From Ascidia mentula (taxonomy: Eukaryota; Chordata; Ascidiacea; Phlebobranchia; Ascidiidae): DNA of 64,000 nt. The notes under the pieces are model-generated. The model ran no database searches. It saw only the letters and a list, made by a program, of their open reading frames with translations, and had not been told where the DNA came from. Location of the stretch: assembly GCA_947561715.1 (NCBI GenBank), contig OX387202.1, forward strand, positions 9,623,001 to 9,687,000. Direction: 5' to 3'. Positions 45,214 through 62,508 of this stretch are shown one piece after another; within the stretch, counting starts at the first letter, position 1, and each line of letters starts with the position of its first letter. Both the position numbers and the translations under genes were made by a program.

Positions 45214-46477
45214 AACTTATTTTGTTCCTACCTTCTTCTGTTAGAACAGATGTTAAAACACAGTTATGTACATTTTTATTGTTAACAGTTTTGAAAAGTA
45301 AGTGATCGGCTGATATGTATTTCATCACGTTGTACTAGATTATAGACGCTCTATAGAGCGTAATGCGGCTTCTGACCTGACGGTCTACCAACAAATTATT
45401 TCTGCCATCCTTACTGTCATTGTTTTGAAAATCAAACCAAGACAAATCACTTGAAATGACGTCACAACAATTCTCCATTTGTTATGCTAGGAAGTAAATG
45501 GTACCAAAACATTACGACGACAAAATGCCTTCAGAAATTGGCCAGAAAAGTTCCAGTTGTGAAAAAGTACTCCATTAAGTGTGCCGGATACAACTTGTAG
45601 CACTGACATGAGTAAATTAGGGCTTTTGTTTCCTGATTTATCGACAATAACTCAATTAGAAGAAACATCATTGATGTCACGTGATCTGCGTGAAAGTTAA
45701 CTACCAGCTATCGCGACCTCGACAAAATCGTCCACTTGAAAAGTTTCATGTCATGGCGACGGCAAACGCGGTTTACTTCTGTTTTGGGTTTTGATTCCTT
45801 TCCACTTGTTATTGCTTGTCAACAAATGATAGTTTAGGAAAGGTGTCAATGACAGTTACCACAACTTAATCTGCTCGGGCTTGCTTGTGTTTTACCTTCT
45901 GCTGTAAACGGCGGTGTACCGAGAATTATTCTGCAACTGATAACAACACGTTATCGGTAATTCTATGTTATTTTCTGATCATCTGTTTTTACTTAAATTT
46001 TAATTGTTTGCTGGTTGCAAGGTCCTTCAATGTTTTTGCTTAGTTGCCACCTTATACGCATCTAACAATCCTTAGCTGTAAGTCGAGTTTCACTAGGATT
46101 GTGAAAAGGAAACTGACTCTCGTGTCAATTTGAAAGGAAACAGCTGTTAACTGCAAAGCGAATCTCCAGCGACAATTCAGTCAAACCATGAATTCATATG
46201 TTTGAATAAAACAATTTTAATATCTCGTATAAAAAAGCTTGTTCTTCAAATACTTCGCCTTATTTTAAAAAAAAATTCTGAGCAGTGAATGTTATTACAG
46301 GCACAAAAAAAGCTAAGTTATACTGATATACATTCTACAATGAAACACATCATATTATTTGAAAGATTTACTTGAAAGTTTAATTTGTTTAATTATTGTA
46401 AGTAATACTTGCTACTCTTTGTTACTCATTCATATATCAGCATATGTGACAAAACTCAATATCGTAAAAGTATTTTG
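45214..46477. other. Intergenic, no gene seen
   Basis: A 14-base palindrome CGCTCTATAGAGCG lies near 45348. The upstream flank of the seven-pass gene is included. No other structure was recognised. Confidence 0.4.
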
Positions 46478-46624
46478 TATTGTAACTTAATAATCTGTTC
46501 TTCTGGCATATATAAAAACGTAACTTTATTCCGACTGAGGAAGCCTTGTTGTGTAACAGGCGAAACGTCGGAATAAAGTTACGTTTTTATGTATGCCAGA
46601 AGAACAGATTATTAAGTTACAATA
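46478..46624 (+). repeat. 147-bp foldback element with hammerhead-like tip
   Basis: Arms 46478-46535 and 46567-46624 are inverted repeats matching at 57 of 58 bases. The tip reads CTGAGGA (46535-46541), then GCCT, T, GTT, loop GTGT, AAC, AGGC, then GAAAC and GTC (46562-46569). The arms contain TCTGTTCTTCTGGCA, shared with the copy at 411-534. No ORF. Confidence 0.85.
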
Positions 46625-47323
46625 TACCTGGCAGCAACAAAAACATTATATTTGTATTTTGTATTGTTGCTAATCTAATGCCGCTTCGAAACAATTTTAA
46701 CCCAATTCTTGGCTTTGCTGTCCTGTATCTAGCTAATCCTGACAACTAGGACGGCAACATATTTTGTATAAACGTGTGCACTCAAATATGACCCTCTGTA
46801 TGATGTGCTTGGTTTGAAAAGGAAACACATGATCGCATTTACAGCGAAGTTGCACAACTGTCCGTTAATTGCTTGTTATGTTGAAAGTATAGGGGACTGA
46901 AATGAAAGTGGGGAAAACACAGTTAATCACCTGCACAATGATGACTCACTGAAACAATCCGCTCATTGTTCAAACAGAAAACAATTGTAAGTGACAACCG
47001 CCCGACTGTCACTCATCCAGCGCCTGATGACATATGCCTTGTTGTTGTTTATCATAATTACAATCGAGTGAGCAGAAAAATAAGTCCATGCCAATGTCCT
47101 GGGGAATGACAGCAGTTTCTTTCAATATAACCTGGACAAACGTGGTATTTTTCACACATAAACTTGGCATGATATTGTTTTCCATCAATTGGTTGCGTCA
47201 CAATTCGTCATCACTGTGACGTGTCGGTTAACAAGCAAGAGCATCCTGGTTGTCACGTCCTTGTGCTGGAAACGAAGTCCACCAACACTAATTTATCTGC
47301 TAAGTGGCGCCGAACCACCAGAA
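46625..47323. other. Intergenic, no gene seen
   Basis: Unannotated AT-rich DNA with no ORF or repeat structure that I could support. Confidence 0.4.
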
Positions 47324-47572: not shown

Positions 47573-47705
47573 CAGTAGGCTTCCTGTTATTGGAATTACC
47601 GGGCTTGCAACTGTGCAGTGAAACAAAATCTTTGAAGCAAAACGAAAAAAAGAAAAAAGGAGCACGTCACCAAATGGAGGAAAAGGAAAATCGTGCTACA
47701 GACGA

Positions 47706-47821
47706 CCAGAGGGATGTTAGTTGACAAAAAAATCGCCAGTTAACAAAACTTTGAACGCGGGTTACTCGGCCACCTTACGAGGTAGCAGCATGATTTTTTT
47801 TGTCAACTAACTTCCCTCTGG
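47706..47821. repeat. Short foldback repeat
   Basis: CCAGAGGGATGTTAGTTGAC followed by an A run is inverted at the other end as a T run then GTCAACTAACTTCCCTCTGG. Arms are about 30 bases with one internal difference plus a length change in the A/T run. The core is about 55 bases. Class unknown. Confidence 0.65.
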
Positions 47822-48252
47822 TCCACAGACGTGTGGAGTTCTGGTCCTTCAGTGCAATTACACCTGTCTGTCGGTTTAATTAACGTGAGTGATTGTTTGT
47901 GTAAGAACAACTTCTGCATTTACTAAAGCCAACCATATGGATTCATTGTTGCCAATATACATTTGTCGTGTATTGCAGCATGAACAATACAACGCACACA
48001 GTGGCACCAAAATTCCTTATGCACCAGCAACCAATTGCATTTTCGTTTTCTTTTTCAGTTACCAACGAATAAAACCAATATCCAGCTATTTAATGTATAT
48101 ATTTCTGCCAAATAAAATATCACTTACTGCGCAAACATACAAACAAGCGGATACAATTTACAGTGGAAAACTTTATTAAATGTTTTCTGTAGAAACATCT
48201 GATTATATAGCTGATACATTTTGTACAAAGGTATTTTGCAACTGTTGCATTT

Positions 48253-52599: not shown

Positions 52600-52695
52600 C
52601 TTGTTGCGTTATACCTGATGAAGTCTCGCCGCATGGCAGACGAAACGTCGTAAAAATACAGTAGGTTTATGCCAAAAGATCAGTACATTTTTAAG
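52600..52695 (+). repeat. Hammerhead-ribozyme-like motif (copy in duplication 1)
   Basis: CTGATGA at 52615-52621, stem II GTCT-C-GCC, loop GCAT, GGC-AGAC (52623-52641), GAAA at 52642-52645, then CGTC. Stem I can form between ATAC before the first box and GTA after GTC. The 3' flank TTATGCCAAAAGATCAG is related to the arms of the 46478 element. Confidence 0.6.
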
Positions 52696-54019
52696 CTAAA
52701 AAATATTTGTTGGCTCCCAAATGCTTGTATGCGCGTTGCCGTTTAAGATACGACCTCACTCAAAACACAAGGTGTACATTTTCTGGTGCCGAACGTATGT
52801 ATGATGTGTGTATGGTAGTGAGCCCTACTTTGTAATGGTATTTCCTTTTCTTATTCCAGAAGTTGGATTAATTTGTTTGGACTAATATCGAACCAAACAA
52901 TGGAAATAAGCATTATGTCATACAATTAAATATTTAACAATTTAACCATGCTCGTCACGGACCCATAGGCAATCTCATTTAGGAAAAAACTGTATTTCAA
53001 ATTAACACCACAAACATTAAAACGTTGAACTCCGAGTTGAAATATGTCCTTATATTTCCCCTTGAAAAGCATCATCGTACTATAAGACATTGATAATGTA
53101 TTCTAAAGCGAAATATATTTGTCGTAGGAAACTATTCTTTGTTTTCTATTTAAATAAAGATAATTTTAGTGCCAATTGTTGAGCTTCTGCTGCAAATGTT
53201 TCTGCGGTAAAATTGTATGTTTTATTGTGTGCAGTGTAATTGGTATAAAAACTGATGATTGAAAAGGCGAGTTTTTGTGCCTCTGTGGTCCCACAATAGT
53301 ACGGTGAGGACCGTTGTATTTTTGATTTTTCTAAATTTTCGTGTTTGCTAATTCTACGCCTGCTTATGTAGACAAACAGCCTGTTTACATAAGTGACACC
53401 CTCCACTAGCCCGCTCCTGACTGTTTTTGCTTGTTAGAATAATGTTTCCGTTCGCCCAGAGTCCTAAGCGTTTTAGAACCGTTGTTGACTGCTATAATTC
53501 CCCACCTCATCCAAAGAATCACACCCACACGACTGTCAAAAAGACAGCGCAACAGAATAGTAAATGTACCGAATAAAGTTAGTTTGTGTATTGTGTGTGA
53601 GAGGTATAGTTTGCATGCAGTTATCCATTACGAACAGATGTGTGCTCATCGTTAAACAGGAAATTCGTCAATACAGGAAGAAGTAATTGATCACGTTTTG
53701 CGATCTTACCGAACTCACGGATATTATGTTAACATATGGATCCGTGACTCGATAACCGTTATGGTTTTATAGGTCGTTGTGCTGAGTGAACGGAGATATT
53801 GAAGATTGCTTTGATCAATGAAAGAGATTGTAACAATTTGTAGAATAAAGAGCATTTAACAAAGCTCCCAATAAATTATTTCCTTTCTAAAAAATTACGC
53901 TTTAAAGCAACAAAATGTTCCCATTTAAAAGTTGTTTCTAAACTGTTCTTGGCACAACAAACGATTTTAGAGATATTCCACAGCATTATAAACAGCAAAT
54001 AATGCTGCAGAGTTTTGTG

Positions 54020-55530
54020 ATCAGAAAACAGAAAATGAAATACGGCCATAAATATCATTGAAATAAAGAAAACCACGTTTGTTTACAATATCAGTAAAAC
54101 GGCGTTTTTTTAACTCAGCATTTGTTTGCATGATGGGATCCATCCTCATATGTTCAATCTCACCTTGCACGCCAAGACTTATTAGGCTACGCGATGCAAG
54201 AAGTATCAGAGCCAGGCGAGACGTACGGCCATATTTGTTTTTCATGTCAACAACCTAACAACCATTTTTTTCAACAGACTCTCGGGATTTGATATCAACT
54301 ACGCTGGTAATGGTAGTGTTTTACCAGCGCCATCGATCGCCCTGTTTGAAATCTGAGAAATTTTCTGTTCGCCATGCGGAACGGTGTGCATTCCACCTCG
54401 TGCTAATTTTTCTTTTTTATGTTTGCAGAATTTTAACAACACATAAACAGTAATTTATTTTGTTGACATTTTAGTTTCATTGCTGTAACATGGAATACCA
54501 GCAGGATCGTTTTTATCGAAGAAAGGCTAAATTCGGTAAATTTTGTACTTTTGTCACATATTTTTATCGTGGTCTTCTTACCGCCTTTAGCGTCAGGTAA
54601 TATGATATCTATGACCGCTTCAAGGTGTAGAGACATGAGACTATGTATGTGTGGCAGCAACGCGAAGCACTTGTTTGAACACTCCCTGTTGGTGGTTTTT
54701 CCGGTTTTAATAAAGGCATATATACCCTATTGGTATAAGCAGGTCCTATGAGCCTCGAGGAAGATAAACGTTGCACTATGGGTGTGTTTAAACCTGACCA
54801 ACCGCAATAAATATATCACTACCCGCCATCTTTCTCGGTTGACGTTTACTATTTCTGCTTATTTAAAAGTTTATTTGCATTTTATCACTGAGCAAAGAAA
54901 CGCACCATCGTCGTATATACAGAGTAATGCCGGTGCTGCTGTACCTTTTGATTTGCCGATAATGATGTACAAATATGCGAGTAACTTTGGTTTGCGACGT
55001 TACGATAAAGTAATTTTTTGCCTAATGACACAGTTTGCCTACACCCTCTTTTTTATTTGATCCATTCGGTATCTTCAATATGAGGAAAGCTTCCTTTAAA
55101 AATAAATTCGTTTTCTGATGCGACTTCCTTGCATGACGTAACAGTGATCGCCGGCACTTTTATTGCATTTTTTTACGTTATAAGTTGTCGCAGAACCGAA
55201 AAACAACCAATGAACTCTAAAGCTTTTATTGAATGAAATATTGAAAACCGCCTTATCGCTCCTAGTTTTGTTGACAGTGATTTGATTTCATGTTGATCTA
55301 AACTATGCCCAAGAAAATCCATAGTGGTTTTGCCGAATTGATATTTCCGTAGATTAAGAACCAAAGAGTTTTCTGAAATGATGCACAGGTGAATTGGACT
55401 CGCATTGAGGTCTTGAAATGTTCCAGGTTTTATTATGAGCGTCCTAAAAGAGTTTGAAAACGCATGCAATGCGACGAGAAACAGGCGAGAAAAGGCACAC
55501 TGCACGCTTCGGTGCACGTTATTCAAGGCA
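54020..55530 (-). mobile_element. Ty3/Gypsy retrotransposon fossil, pol part (copy 1)
   Basis: Broken fragment on the minus strand, in element order. Reverse transcriptase lies at about 55173-55526 (DFLGHSLD preceded by a LNLRKYQFGK block). An integrase-like block is at about 54433-54660 (VIDIILPDAKGG then KICDKSTKFTEF), and a more distal integrase-like piece at about 54021-54245. Several breaks; no LTR pair was recognised. It pre-dates the segmental duplication because the same relic is in copy 2. Confidence 0.6.
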
Positions 55531-55578
55531 CATTCAACGTGGTCGCCATAACAGTTTGATTTTTATCACGTGATATTC

Positions 55579-56289
55579 TTAATCACGCCTAACTAATAAA
55601 TAATTACAGATATACACTTCACTAACTCCTTTAGAACGAAAATAAGATGACGTATGATCACGTTTTTCAAGTAATTTAATTTTAAATTTGGAGCCAAACA
55701 TTTCATTCAAGATATCATTTTCAATAGGGTGAGGTACTCCATCATATTTTTCACCGTCGTAGAAGAAAACGTTCAACAGAATTTTACCTTCTGTTTTTAC
55801 CAAACTGCTCAGAACTTCGGCATGCTTGATTCTGCTTCCTACACTGATTGAACCAAATGCGGCCCTGTCCCAAACTGCATCAAACGATCCAAACATATCC
55901 TTTTGTGCTTCATTCATATCTCCTTGGTACAAAGTGATTGCAAGCTCGTTTGCTTGGAAAATAGTAAATGGAATACCAGGATCTGTTCGTTTCAAGAATG
56001 TAAGGGAATTTTCTTCAAAAAAATCCACACAAGCTTTTTCTGAACAATCCAAACCAACAACTTCATGACCCTTTTCAGCCAAATATTTCATATCAACTGA
56101 TTTTCCGCATAAAGGAACAAACACTCTCCCCTTGGATGGCAAAAGTTTGTCTTCGTGCTGGAGCAGGTCGCGATTTACGGACGATTCGTGCCACACTGTG
56201 TCTTTGGTTTGATAGTAGTTGTCCCATTTTTCATTACTCCAGTTTCTTCTTTGCGAAGTCATTTTACTACAACTGATTAACAGAGGCAC
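55579..56289 (-). CDS. TPMT: Thiopurine S-methyltransferase-like protein, copy 1
   Basis: A single uninterrupted frame of 236 residues (human TPMT 245). The second Met (residue 10, MTSQRRNW) is an equally plausible start. The class I SAM-binding motif is RVFVPLCGKSVDMKYLAEKG, followed by HEVVGLDCSEKA. The post-motif FDAVWDRAAFGSI corresponds to the TPMT block that reads WDRGAL in human. The C-terminal part has NVFFYDGEKYDGVPHPI. TPMT-family enzymes transfer a methyl group from S-adenosylmethionine to thiols or related small molecules in the cytosol; the substrate here is unknown. The vertebrate gene is multi-exon, so the absence of introns suggests a retrocopy or lineage-specific loss. The frame is fully open in both duplicates with only ten residue differences, which argues that both are functional. 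Confidence 0.87.
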   Translation of the reverse strand: MPLLISCSKMTSQRRNWSNEKWDNYYQTKDTVWHESSVNRDLLQHEDKLLPSKGRVFVPLCGKSVDMKYLAEKGHEVVGLDCSEKACVDFFEENSLTFLKRTDPGIPFTIFQANELAITLYQGDMNEAQKDMFGSFDAVWDRAAFGSISVGSRIKHAEVLSSLVKTEGKILLNVFFYDGEKYDGVPHPIENDILNEMFGSKFKIKLLEKRDHTSSYFRSKGVSEVYICNYLLVRRD

Positions 56290-57811
56290 AGAATGCAGTT
56301 TAATATTAACGTACTGATTTGCAGCTCACTATAAAAAAACAACATTATCAGCTGTTGATCAATCTTTGTTGGTAATTTATCAATTCCCTACATGTAAGCG
56401 TGACACTTCCTCCCACTACACGATGCTCTAAGTATTGGCTGTGGAGAGGTTTCAGTTGCCAACGTGACTGATTTCGAAATAACGTCTTTATAAATGTTGG
56501 CTGGAAGTGCTTCTAATTTATATTCGGTTATTAGGTCATATTTCATTTACGTGATTACGCAGTAATGTGACATTGTGTCGCACTCTTGGATCTACTTTCA
56601 TTGTTGATATATGGTCAGGCGTTGATGTAACTCGAGTTTGGTCGTTTGGTTGCTAAGAATGTCCCACATGTTCGTGACATAATGGGAGGAAGTTGTACTA
56701 GTACGCAACGTGGTTTGATCGATGACGACTTGGCTTGTTGTGGTAACAGTTCTGTAGAAGTTCTTTGTTGGATGTGCATTTCACGCTTATTTCAACTGTT
56801 GAGAGTAACTTTCGTTGCGAGCATTGCTTGCAAGCCCTGTAGGCATGCATTTCAACAGATCTCTATTTACATGAACTTGTATTCCTAAAAAGTTAGCCCC
56901 CGATTTCCGTGCAATTTTATGTTGCAAAACAGAACAAATCCGTATTATAAGGTTCACAGGCTTCGCAGGTGAACCTTTTATATTGGCATTGCAGCCAAGC
57001 TGGATCAGCCATTTTTCTCGACAAGTCGGTGCGAGTGCGAGATCAAGCTCTCGGTGAAGTTTTAATTTCGATCCTGGGCTAAATAGCCTATTGCTCTATC
57101 AACTTCCGTGGTTTCACGGGGTATCCTGCTTGTTATGCGAAAACAAGGTATTACTTCTGCGTTATCCGTATAAGGTAAGTAGCATTATAGGATAACAAAC
57201 ATTCTTGTTTTAAACACAAACATCAATGAAAAGTTATGCCCGATTTTTGACAATATACATCTTAATATCCAGTCATTACCGTTGTGGGTGAATGTTGTAA
57301 TATATTCAATTAACATTTTTGAAACAATCCTGCCATTCGCGAAGTTAAGTCCGATTAAATTGTTGACCGTCTGAGGAGTTGCCTGGTTTATCATTGGCCG
57401 TTAAAAAGGCCCAATATAGTGTATAACACATCATCGGCCGTAGCTAACTCAGATGTTCTATTTTGTGGCACGCAAAATCATTTGCAAACTCCACATGTCT
57501 CTTCTGCCCAAATGTCAAAACGATAAGACGCTTCTCCAGTGATTAGAAATCGATTCTACAACAAACGCCTAAGTTACTGCAAGATAAGCAAAAGTTTGTT
57601 CTGTGCAGATACCAAAATTTTCCGTTAACTTATCACTTACCAAGACACAAACTAATAGATTATAGCAGAGCCACACAGTGCAATTCACTGAGAGAGGTTC
57701 ATTGCAGACAAAATCAACCTGATACTTTCTATGTGGCGGCTGGTCATTCTCTAAACGTGCATTGTTTGAAACGTCGTTTCCTGATGCTGTTCCGAACGTG
57801 ATTTCCGCTGT

Positions 57812-58659
57812 ATTTTGTTGCACGTCTTCCTGTTAGTGCGCTTCGTTATACGGTATGTTATTGGTTCTGTGGGCGGTTGAAATGACGGTGCTTTTTTGTC
57901 AGCTAATGTTATGGGCAGTTTTAACACACTTTTCTCAATAACGAAAGTCCTTGCAGTGATAAAAATGAAAAACTAAGTTTTTGTGTATGGGGTACATAAA
58001 ATCTGACCTCGTTTTTATGCTTCCATGTTTCCAACGAAACACCATTCAAAAAAATGCAGGGTAGTTTAATGTAGAACCAACACATATGTCAATGTTATGT
58101 TCAATGTCAACTTGTCTCCATTATTCTAATTGTTTCCAACCATGTTTATGGCGGTTCAAAGGTATATTTGGAGCAACTACAAAAAGTGAATGAATTTCGC
58201 TGTAAGGCAGGGCGAAACCAAGAAGGGACGATCTCCTCCTTCAAACATGTTATTACACTGAAAATATCACTGCAGAGTCAGATAACAGAGTTGTCATTAA
58301 ATTGATTTTTGTTGTTCAGTAGTGTGCTTTGTTTGTCACACGTCTGTATGTGACCGAAATCGTCATTAGCGCGTTACGACGTCACAGTGACATATTTTTG
58401 TGTGATGTGAAACTTTTTTACGACGTCGCGTTTCTTCTCCTATGTAAACAATGCAGTTTTTCGACATGAGCACCTTGCGTGATGTCAATTTCACCACAGC
58501 GAAAACAGTTTGGTCGCCGCTACGTTTTGTGCAGTTTTCTACATTTTTTTGTTGACGTAGAACCGAAAAACGTTTGATATATGTTTGTTGTAGATGTACC
58601 TTTAGTTTTACGCACAGTTACCATGACCGTTTCTAATGCACTTTTAGTGTAGTTCTTGT
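57812..58659. other. Spacer between the two duplication copies
   Basis: No gene. 58370-58640 contains the dispersed repeat also present at 2755-3070. Confidence 0.5.
58370..58640. repeat. Dispersed repeat, second copy
   Basis: Shares with 2755-3070 the ordered blocks CTTG.(T/G)TGA.GT.AATTT, GCCGCTACNTTT...GTTTTCTAC and ATATGTTTGTTGNNGATGTACCT. Diverged; class unknown. Confidence 0.5.
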
Positions 58660-58824
58660 ATAAATAATAAAAAAATATTTAATATAGAAATGAGTACAAA
58701 AAATTTGTGTCTTTTGCAATGTTTGGTGCCTCTGCCTCTAGCACGTTAGTTGACAAGCGGTGTCAACGTTCCCCCTTTTTTCTTTTTCTTTCATCCCCCT
58801 GCGTGTTTCAGTGTGATTCAATTG

Positions 58825-58925
58825 TTGCGTTATACCTGATGAAGTCTCGCCGCATGGCAGACGAAACATCGTAAAAATACAGTTCGTTTATGCCAGAAGA
58901 TCAGTACATTTTTAAGTTAAAAAAT
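58825..58925 (+). repeat. Hammerhead-ribozyme-like motif (copy in duplication 2)
   Basis: CTGATGA at 58836-58842, the same stem II as copy 1, and GAAA at 58863-58866 followed by CATC instead of CGTC. The 3' flank TTATGCCAGAAGATCAG is closer to the 46478 element than copy 1's is. Confidence 0.6.
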
Positions 58926-60239
58926 ATTTGTTGGCTCCCAAATGCTTGTATGGCGCGTTGTCGTTTAAGATACGACCTCACTCAAAACACAAGGTGTCCA
59001 TTTTCTGGTGCCGAACGTGTGTATGTGTGTGTGGTAGTGAGCCCTACTTTGTAATGGTATTTCCTTTTCTTTTTTCAGAAGTTGAAATTTTTGTTTGGAC
59101 AAAAAACGAACCAAATAATGAAAATAAGCAATTTGTCACACAATTAGATATTAAACAATATAACCATGCTCGTCACGGACCCATAGGCAATCTCATTTAG
59201 GAAAAAACTGTATTTCAAATTAACACCACAAACATTAAAATGTTGAACTCCGAGTTGAATATGTCTTTATATATATTTCCCTTTAAAAGGCATCTTCGTA
59301 CACAAGAATAAGACACTGATGATGTATTTTAAAGCGATATGTATTTGTCGTGGGAAACTATTGTTTGTTTTCTATTTAAATATTTTTTAGTAATTTTAGT
59401 GTCAATTGTTGGGTTTCTGCTGCAAATGTTTCTGCGGTAAAATTGTATGTTTTATTGTGTGCAGTGTAATTTGTTTAAAGTGATAAAAACTGATGATTGA
59501 AAAGGCCCGTTTTTGTGCCTCTGTGGTCCCACAATAGTACGGTGAGGACCGTTGTATTTTTGATTTTTCTAAATTTTCGTGTTTGCTAATTCTACGTCTG
59601 CTTATGTAGACAAACAGCCTGTTTACATAAGTGACACCCTCCACTAGCCCCCTTCTGACTGCTTTTGCTTGTTAGAATAATGTTTCCGTTCGCCCAGAGT
59701 CCTAAGCGTTTTAGAACCGTTGTTGACTACTAGAATTCCCCACCTCATGCAAAGAATCACGCCCACACGACTGTCAAAAAGACAGCGCAACAGTATCGTA
59801 AATGAACCGAATAAAATTAGTTCGTGTATTGTATGTGAGAGGCATAGTTTGCAAGCAGTTATCCATTACGAACAGATGTGTGCTCATCGTTAAACAGGAA
59901 ACTTGTCCATACAGGAAGAAGTAATTGATCACGTTTTGCGATCTTACCGAACTCACGGATATTATGTTAACATATGGGTCCGTGACTCGCTATAACTGTT
60001 ATCGTTTTATAGGTCGTTGTACGGAGTGAACGGAGATATTTAAGATTGCTTTGATCAATGAAAGAGATTGTTATAATTTGTTGAATAAAGAGCATTTTAC
60101 AAAAGTATCAGCACAATAGCTCCCAACAAAATAATTTCTTTCTAAAAAATTATGCTTTAAAGCACCAAAATGTTCCCATTCAAACAGATGTTTCTAAACT
60201 GTTCTTGGCACAACAAACAATTTTAGAGATATTCAAAAG

Positions 60240-61755
60240 CATTATGAAAAGCAAAAAATGCTGCAGAGTTTTTATGATCAGAAAACATTAAATGAAATAC
60301 GGCCATAAATATCATTGAAATAAAGAAAACCACTTTACTGTTTGTTTACAATATCAGTAAAACGGCTTATTTTTAACTCAGCATTTATCTGCATGATGGG
60401 ACCCATCCTTACATGTTCAATCTCACCTTGCAAGCCAAGACTTATTAGGCTACGCGATGCAAGAAGTATCAGAGCCAGGCGAGACGTACGGCCATATTTG
60501 TTTTTCATGTCAACAACCTAACAACCACTTTCTTCAAAAGACTCTCGGGATTTGATATCAATTACGCTGGTAATGGTAGTGTTTTACCGGCGCCATCGAT
60601 CGCCCTGTTTGAAATCTGAGAAATTTTCTGTTCTCCATACGGAACGGTGTGCATTCCACCTTGTGCTAATTTTTCTTTTTTATGTTTGCAGAATTTTAAC
60701 AACACATAAACAGTAATTTATTTTGTTGACATTTTAGTTTCATTGCTGTAACATGGAATACCAGCAGGATCGTTTTTATCGAAGAAAGGCTAAATTCGGT
60801 AGATTTTGTACTTTTGTTGCATATTTTTATCGTGGTCTTCTTACCGCCTTTAGCGTCCGCTAATATGATATCTATGACCGCTTCTGGGTGTGGAGACATG
60901 AGACTATGTGTGTGTGGCAGCAACGCGAAGCACTTGTTTGAACACTACCTGTTGGTGGTTTTTACGATTTTAATAAAGGCATATATACCTTATTGGTATA
61001 AGCAGGACCTAAGAGCCTCAAGGAAGATAAACGTTGCACTATGGGTGTGTTTAAACCTCAATAAATATATTTCCGCAATAAATATATCACTACCCGCCAT
61101 CTCTCTCGGTTGCACGTTTACTACTTCTGCTCATTCAAAAGTTAATTTGCATTTTATCACTGAGCAAAGAAACGCACCATCGTCGTATATACAGAGTAAT
61201 GCCGGTGCTGCTGTACCTTTTGATTTGCCGATAATGATGTACAAATATGCGTGTAACTTTGGTTTGCGACGTTACGATAAAGTATTTTTTTGCCTAATGA
61301 CACAGTTTACCTACACCATCTTAAATTCGTTTTCTGATGCGACTTCCTTGCATGACGTAACAGTGATCGCCGGCACTTTTGTTGCATTTTTCTACTTTAT
61401 AAGTTGTCGCAGAGCCGAAAAACAACCAATGAACTCTAAAGCTTTTAATGAATGAGACATTGAAAACCGCCTAATCGCTTCTACTTTTGTTGACAGTTAT
61501 TTGATTTTATGTTGATCTAGACTATGCCCAAGAAAATCCATAGTGGTTTTGCCGAATTGATGTTTCCGTAGATTAAGAGCCAAAGAGTTTTCAGAAATGA
61601 TGCACAGATGAATTGGACTCGCATTGAGATCCTGAAATGTTCCAGCTTTTATTATGAGCGCCTCTAAAAGAGTTTAACAACGCATGCAAAGCGACGAGAA
61701 ACACGCGAGAAAAGGCACACTGCACGCTTCGGTGCACATTATCATGGCACATTCA
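60240..61755 (-). mobile_element. Ty3/Gypsy retrotransposon fossil, pol part (copy 2)
   Basis: Counterpart of the relic at 54020-55530, duplicated with its surroundings. The integrase-like block lies at about 60696-60923 and the reverse-transcriptase part at about 61400-61755. Broken at several points. A long frame on the opposite strand here (60814-61455) is antisense to it. Confidence 0.55.
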
Positions 61756-61797
61756 ACGCGGTCGCCATAACAGTTTGATTTTCATCACGTAAGATTC

Positions 61798-62508
61798 TTA
61801 ATCACGTCTAACTAATAAATAATTACAGATATACACTTCACTAACTCCTTTAGAACGAAAATTAGATGACGTATAATCACGTTTTTCAAGTAATTTAATT
61901 TTAAATTCGGAGCCAAACATTTCATTCAAGATATCATTTTCAATAGGGTGAGGTACTCCATCATATTTTTCACCGTCGTAGAAGAAAACGTTCAACAGAA
62001 TTTTACCATCTGTTTTTACCAAACTGCTGAGAACTTCGGCATGCTTGATTCTGCTTCCTACACTGATTGAACCAAATCCGCCCCTGTCCCAAACTGCATC
62101 AAACGATCCAAACATATCCTTTTGTGCATCATTAATATCTCCTTGGTACAAAGTGATTGCAAGCTCGTTTGCTTGAAAAATAGTAAAAGGAATACCAGGA
62201 TCTGTTCGTTTCAAGAATGTAAGAGAATTTTCTTCAAAAAAATCCACACAAGCTTTTTCTGAACAATCCAAACCAACAACTTCATGTCCCTTTTCAGCCA
62301 AATATTTCATATCAACTGATTTTCCGCATAAAGGAACAAACACTCTCCCCTTGGATGGCAAAAGTTTGTCTTCGTGCTGGAGCAGGTCGCGATTTACGGA
62401 CGATTCGTGCCACACTGTGTCTTTGGTTTGATAGTAGTTGTCCCACTTTTCATTACTCCAGTCTCTTCTTTGCGAAGTCATTTTACTACAACTGATTAAC
62501 AGATGCAC
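61798..62508 (-). CDS. TPMT: Thiopurine S-methyltransferase-like protein, copy 2
   Basis: Single open frame of 236 residues, differing from copy 1 at ten positions by my reading. The SAM-binding block RVFVPLCGKSVDMKYLAEKG is unchanged. In the catalytic-pocket block it reads WDRGGFGSI where copy 1 has WDRAAFGSI. The Gly form is nearer to the human WDRGAL, so this copy may keep the ancestral state. Other changes are mostly conservative (N/D, M/I, E/D), plus K/E, H/Y and Y/N near the C terminus. Same orientation and the same position relative to the Gypsy fossil as copy 1. Confidence 0.87.
   Translation of the reverse strand: MHLLISCSKMTSQRRDWSNEKWDNYYQTKDTVWHESSVNRDLLQHEDKLLPSKGRVFVPLCGKSVDMKYLAEKGHEVVGLDCSEKACVDFFEENSLTFLKRTDPGIPFTIFQANELAITLYQGDINDAQKDMFGSFDAVWDRGGFGSISVGSRIKHAEVLSSLVKTDGKILLNVFFYDGEKYDGVPHPIENDILNEMFGSEFKIKLLEKRDYTSSNFRSKGVSEVYICNYLLVRRD

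Follow-up and report, generated by a model that had tools for sequence, protein, structure and literature searches.

The window, a 64,000-nt stretch of DNA from the ascidian Ascidia mentula, contains at 46478-46624 a near-perfect hairpin with a hammerhead-like core at its tip, and the locus raises the question of what this structure is and how it was formed. Its arms (46478-46535 and 46567-46624) are 58 nt each, 98% complementary and spaced by 31 nt. RNA folding gave -95.5 kcal/mol with a z-score of -19.5, which was equalled by 0 of 200 shuffles. The hairpin and its core, first described in an earlier note made from the letters alone, are thus real. The core and its stem II are as follows.

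46535-46569, plus strand: minimal hammerhead core, CTGANGA-stem II-GAAAC-GTC, without stem III, which begins the direct pseudo-LTR (pLTR) piece (sequence, motif scans, stem II alignment)
46543-46561, plus strand: stem II, pairing 46543-46546 with 46558-46561 and 46548-46550 with 46555-46557, with a bulge at 46547 (alignment, predicted fold)

The core reads CTGAGGA-A-stem II-GAAAC-GTC, and its stem II is composed of GCCT/AGGC and GTT/AAC with a single bulged base. It has the CUGANGA ... stem II ... GAAA ... UH letters of a minimal type I hammerhead, a likeness that is partly given by construction, the copies having been found with the motif pattern. The Rfam hammerhead models, which the earlier note had proposed as a check, with a lack of hits for every copy as a refuting outcome, gave 0 matches at E <= 1 over 40000-64000 of the window, presumably because stem III is missing. 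In the predicted RNA fold GAC is base-paired with GTC, the cleavage triplet, as had been remarked before. This pairing makes the suspicion of an inactive copy plausible, and the window copy is probably an inactive remnant. A second inverted repeat is located at 47704-47823 (arms of 29 nt, 97% complementary, 62 nt apart); it has no relation to the hairpin at 46478-46624 as far as examined.

The sequence identifies the hairpin as a short Penelope-like retrotransposon insertion made up of two partial copies placed head-to-head. Around the core we identified the following features, in which sites A and B are the two end sites described below.

46470-46483, no strand: left target site duplication GTATTTTGTATTGT (exact 14-bp repeat)
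46484-46534, minus strand: left arm, an inverted partial pLTR with its outer end at site B and the tail absent (alignments, end typing)
46570-46653, plus strand: pLTR right arm, with its outer end at site A (alignment, end typing)
46654-46667, no strand: right target site duplication GTATTTTGTATTGT (exact 14-bp repeat)

The insertion spans 46484-46653 between the identical 14-bp duplications and is non-coding. Its right arm carries an ATG at 46593, site B after 46618 and the tail at 46619-46653. The earlier note had read the locus as an element of about 150 bp whose stem I is extraordinarily long; it is instead a single insertion whose arms are two partial pLTR copies in inverted orientation. 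Read by eye, some family copies have the core without a left arm, and the left arms of others vary in length and junction. The hairpin was not made by the hammerhead.

That the hairpin is itself a mobile unit, MITE-like or retrozyme-like, multiplying as a hairpin, seems to us highly improbable. It is short, with inverted arms and a flanking duplication, as such a unit would be, and several hairpins match most of the window copy at 84-96% identity. However, junctions and arm lengths vary from copy to copy, L011/L012 and L021/L025 being exceptions as segmental duplicates; one end carries a tail that the other lacks, and the same build is found in several families and in ~3 kb insertions. A MITE or DNA transposon was rejected because identical terminal inverted repeats were not found, the outer ends differing by the ~30-nt tail. 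A metazoan retrozyme was also considered. Such elements are described as non-coding circular-RNA elements with a classical type I hammerhead containing helix III (PMC7229834, PMC7761336), and this candidate was rejected because the motif here has no helix III (ACGU) and belongs to pLTRs of Penelope-like elements with an ORF.

The family assignment was examined genome-wide. The pattern CTGANGAAG-N(8-26)-GAAACRTCG gave 858 exact matches (438 + 420) in the 195.8-Mb genome, and a reversed control pattern gave 0 in the same genome. At locus L053 an ORF stops at 1953 and the core starts at 1961, 8 nt past the stop. The ORF scored 29.5 bits for GIY-YIG, above the cut-off of 22.6, and 20.1 bits for RVT_1 (E 5.7e-4), below the cut-off of 29.6. 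Used as a search query, it had 113 matches in the genome, several of which lie 203-318 nt from a core.

C1:21410158-21411246, C70:4143755-4144861 and C69:21787536-21788627: L053-matched ORFs near cores of the C3U family
C1:4086512-4087621: L053-matched ORF near a beta core
C1:7290259-7291377: L053-matched ORF near an epsilon core

The tandem pLTR-ORF-pLTR layout was observed in beta, in which an 841-aa frame lies between two direct cores, one at C1:4085247 and the other at C1:4087846. Inverted pLTRs, the tail and target site duplications, by which Penelope-like elements (PLEs) are recognized, were all found, the duplication of the window copy being 14 bp. By these characters the motif-bearing elements are PLEs, with pLTRs that carry a minimal hammerhead without stem III, in agreement with the earlier claim of a minimal stem III and its pointer to such elements. 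Minimal hammerheads without helix III have already been described in PLE pLTRs (PMC6155905, PMC7761336). L060 (C67:6133700-6140000) is an array of PLE copies in tandem whose open frames measure 869-886 aa; the frame scanned gave 40.5 bits for RVT_1 and 28.2 bits for GIY-YIG. L060 was rejected as the source of the window element, because RT and GIY-YIG are present but the hammerhead motif is absent from the array by regex. It seems that the genome contains both PLE lineages that have the motif and others that lack it. At L041, the first core is followed ~130 nt downstream, on its own strand, by a core of another family (CTGATGAAGGTTGCTG..).

Four copies of the core had been reported in the window, whereas two scans gave three, at 46535, 52615 and 58836. 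The latter two are as follows.

52615-52649, plus strand: hammerhead core of another PLE family (beta), with a long pLTR, no inverted arm in the stretch examined and end B by alignment
58836-58870, plus strand: second copy of the 52615 beta insertion, with ATC replacing GTC, carried by a segmental duplication (scans, spacing)

These cores are separated by 6221 bp and the adjoining near-identical ORFs by 6219 bp, so they look like one insertion duplicated together with host DNA. The region 52615-62508 contains a segment of ~6.2 kb that is duplicated in tandem, with the same PLE remnant in each unit. The duplicated ORFs, 236 aa each and near-identical, are on the minus strand at 55579-56289 and 61798-62508, and presumably resemble thiopurine methyltransferases.

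The covariation of stem II claimed for these copies was borne out. We aligned 37 of 46 distinct cores, leaving out nine (the six 34-nt cores and three 35-nt ones); 13 of 102 loci, which lack a strict core, had been dropped before the core set was compiled. Pairing was found in 95.4% of 259 cells (81.6% when shuffled), both-side changes in 54 cells (17.3 when shuffled), and the covariation score was 0.599 (0.309 when shuffled), each value being reached by 0 of 500 shuffles in a control that is inflated by the relatedness of the cores. Sliding the partner strand by 1 to 3 columns lowered the pairing to 30-53%. Across the 37 cores, neither the pairs with a both-side change (162/500) nor the pair types (411/500) were in excess over shuffles. 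The invariance of the core letters is due in part to the pattern used to find the copies.

In a C3U subfamily, TTGAGGA replaces CTGAGGA and G8 is kept (for example L010, L015, L019, L023, and L024). Exact 35-nt core copies genome-wide number 113 for the C3U form versus 66 for the C3 form, and L053-matched ORFs adjoin C3U cores. These copy numbers suggest that hammerhead cleavage may be dispensable for the spread of the PLEs, with residual C3U activity or help in trans as further possibilities, and the subfamily therefore bears on the role of PLE hammerheads. In the Anolis element PAc, C3G is reported to abolish cleavage, and hammerhead mutants still insert in vitro (PMC11167929). Another reading of the window hairpin is that of a self-cleaving ribozyme, functional and with a giant stem I, which selection has maintained as such. 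It would accommodate the covarying stem II and the very stable fold, and yet we regard it as very improbable: GTC is paired in the predicted fold, the pLTR motif accounts for the covariation, which lies between PLE families, the long arms are not common to all copies, and the C3U subfamily outnumbers the intact core by exact matches.

How the two copies came to stand head-to-head can be read from their outer ends. Going outward from the core, the pLTRs terminate at either of two sites, B upstream and A downstream, with a spacing of ~30 nt. Site B is near AAGTT (~core+85 in the alpha family) and site A is AC-rich (~core+110 to 125). Both fall in the start of the ORF, whose ATG is at core+53 in the beta copies L084 and L085; the L084 frame continues past site A. 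Both ends could be typed in 60 head-to-head insertions, and all 60 combine an A end with a B end; 14 of them (13 single loci and L121/L122) are typed by presence or absence of the tail, not by a strong target site duplication. The 60 consist of 36 anchored by target site duplication, 13 anchored by a one-sided tail, L109/L110, and ten predicted. In the 36, the two boundaries differ by 19-48 nt. Of the 52 loci that have an inverted left arm, 36 gave a target site duplication score of at least 9, versus 6 of 300 mismatched pairs; the commonest score was 12 (16/52). The 13 tail-typed loci are L024, L036, L046, L062, L069, L070, L073, L074, L080, L091, L094, L101 (with an arm of only ~12 nt), and L120. 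L109 and L110 are a single ~3.3 kb insertion with CTTGCTATTTGTTT in common and A/B ends. The A/B prediction was set down before the last pairs were fetched, and ten new typed pairs conform (nine of one set of 10 pairs, plus L141/L142). L121/L122 was typed by the tail alone, the duplication called by the script being a chance match to the tail.

Typing outside the target-site-anchored set was partly by eye, with the hypothesis known to the typist, and two script typings were overruled: the left A of L046 was read as B (it ends at 83), and the A of single-arm L071 was read as B. The segmental duplicates L012/L011 and L025/L021 were counted once each. Four head-to-head insertions are untyped. L021 (= L025) has its right arm cut short, L028 has its left end near B and is possibly B/B, and L119 is worn and possibly A/A. 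The fourth, L131/L132 (C70:1305683-1307487), is a C3U head-to-head pair with both ends B; it has no common target site duplication, and its outer flanks are the same other DNA in inverted orientation, so it is not a simple insertion.

About 110 of at least 858 motif places were examined, in a single genome. Loci L061-L120 are 60 of 100 listed motif places, all on C1, picked by core family and listing order and not by their arms. All 24 head-to-head insertions typed among them are A/B, and one more (L119) is untyped. Of the 34 loci in this set with a single arm, 20 end at A and 10 at B, with 4 untyped (script and by eye). At a single-arm base rate of 19/29 for A, with L084 left out as an internal copy, independence predicts A/B in 45% of insertions, and the probability is ~5e-9 for 24 of 24 and ~2e-21 for 60 of 60. 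The first locus set was found by likeness to the window copy with a query that stops six bases past B; A/A is therefore not disfavoured, and B/B may be slightly disfavoured. C3U neighbours within 5 kb (100 listed of 113 places) are head-to-head in 16 cases, tail-to-tail in 0 and on the same strand in 2.

We consider it likely that a head-to-head insertion is one PLE retrotransposition event with two cDNAs primed at A and B. The PLE RNA would carry the hammerhead near its 5' end, followed by the start codon and then by start sites B and A ~30 nt apart. Both target strands would be cut with a stagger of ~12 bp, and each target 3' end would prime its own cDNA, one at A and the other at B. Both cDNAs would extend toward the RNA 5' end and be joined head-to-head there, often after truncation, which would leave an inverted repeat tipped by the hammerhead and enclosed by the duplication. 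One RNA offers one A and one B, so exclusive A/B pairing would be explained. The PLE ORFs adjoining the hammerhead motifs, the duplications, the two end sites, the pairing of A with B and the alleles common to both arms are features of the sequences themselves. From them we infer two separately primed cDNAs, made on one RNA or on RNAs of one source, their end joining, and an RNA 5' end near the hammerhead.

The common alleles emerged from a comparison of arms, for which 6 of 29 hairpins were unusable. The arms of one hairpin are within an edit distance of 1 in 14 of 23 cases versus 63 of 506 cross pairs (0 of 2002 permutations), and the allele ATCTTTGCC is present in both arms of L015, L022, and L023. 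Both cDNAs therefore seem to derive from one RNA or from RNAs of one source. Common alleles also fit two RNAs of one source or later exchange between the arms.

Near-identical arms joined near the 5' end are also what self-priming predicts, a mechanism in which a lone cDNA (or antisense transcript) would fold onto its own end and use its own arm as the template, as has been proposed in print for rotifer Penelope (PMC3846280). A copied arm, however, is expected to end with its template or to run into target DNA. When the 49 single-locus cases are oriented so that the core points right, the outer end of the core-bearing arm is A in 26 of them and B in the other 23; six have a full core in both arms (L046, L065, L087, L096, L106, and L120), which leaves 22 A and 21 B. 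In 21 of these 43 single-full-core insertions the other arm has a tail that is absent from the core-bearing arm (right B/left A), so it is not a plain copy of that arm, and in the other 22 the core-less arm stops at B. This pattern argues against simple self-priming, which is already hard to hold for the right-B/left-A cases and which we regard as unlikely overall, and for two separately primed cDNAs, which accords with the cutting and extension of both strands by PAc. Snap-back copying had been our first reading and was dropped once A and B appeared on opposite ends.

As for the RNA 5' end, 28 of 44 alpha loci cease to match a longer copy at 0-6 nt before the core, a position measured against the reference L036, which itself differs from others at -7, and the true stop may be farther from the core by a few nt. 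The RNA would thus probably begin close to the core, with the cDNAs ending near it. In families other than alpha, a clustered stop upstream of the core is less clear. The TCATT at the alpha stop appears to resemble an initiator. With less assurance than for the two-cDNA origin, we favour a fuller reading, in which PLEs would integrate by two-sided target-primed reverse transcription, one RNA being used once per start site, one for each strand, and hammerhead self-cleavage being dispensable.

Minimal PLE hammerheads, inverted pLTRs, tails, and target site duplications are already known. Strict one-A/one-B pairing, with two-sided priming as its cause, was not found in the literature searched, by which we do not claim its absence from print; the optional tail on one inverted pLTR (PMC3846280) comes close. 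PLE integration is said to involve additional steps yet to be validated (PMC11167929), and experiments have been called for to tell self-priming from other models (PMC3846280). With many insertions in which both ends and the flanking target site duplications are preserved, this genome makes PLE integration testable. The one-A/one-B pairing speaks for two-sided priming, and the pairing of ends hints at how PLEs enter genomes.

The small PLE hammerhead variants (Cervera and de la Pena 2014; Lunse 2017) likewise have a type I core without helix III in pLTRs and are thought to cleave as dimers (PMC6155905, PMC7761336). Unlike them, the present elements include several families in one genome, with one C3-to-U subfamily still numerous. 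PAc of Anolis carolinensis, a member of the Penelope/Poseidon clade, is described as cutting and extending both target strands, with reverse transcription starting at two adjacent sites within an AC-rich stem loop, 111-118 bp from the start of the ORF, and its known tail is the sequence between the two start sites (PMC11167929). The elements studied here resemble PAc in having an RT and GIY-YIG ORF with the hammerhead at its start, and two adjacent internal AC-rich start sites that define the tail (PMC11167929). For PAc in vitro no difference in start site was observed from one strand to the other, which neither supports nor excludes A/B pairing, and we found in that account no matching of the start site on one strand with that on the other (PMC11167929). 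In contrast to that in vitro work, the evidence here is genomic, and each site is used once, on opposite ends. Penelope of the rotifer Adineta vaga shares the inverted head-to-head pLTRs, with target site duplications of 8-10 bp in several copies and a 31-bp tail that is optional on one inverted pLTR (PMC3846280); the word hammerhead has 0 occurrences in that paper. Self-priming was inferred for Adineta vaga (PMC3846280), whereas the A/B pairing in Ascidia mentula points to two-sided priming.
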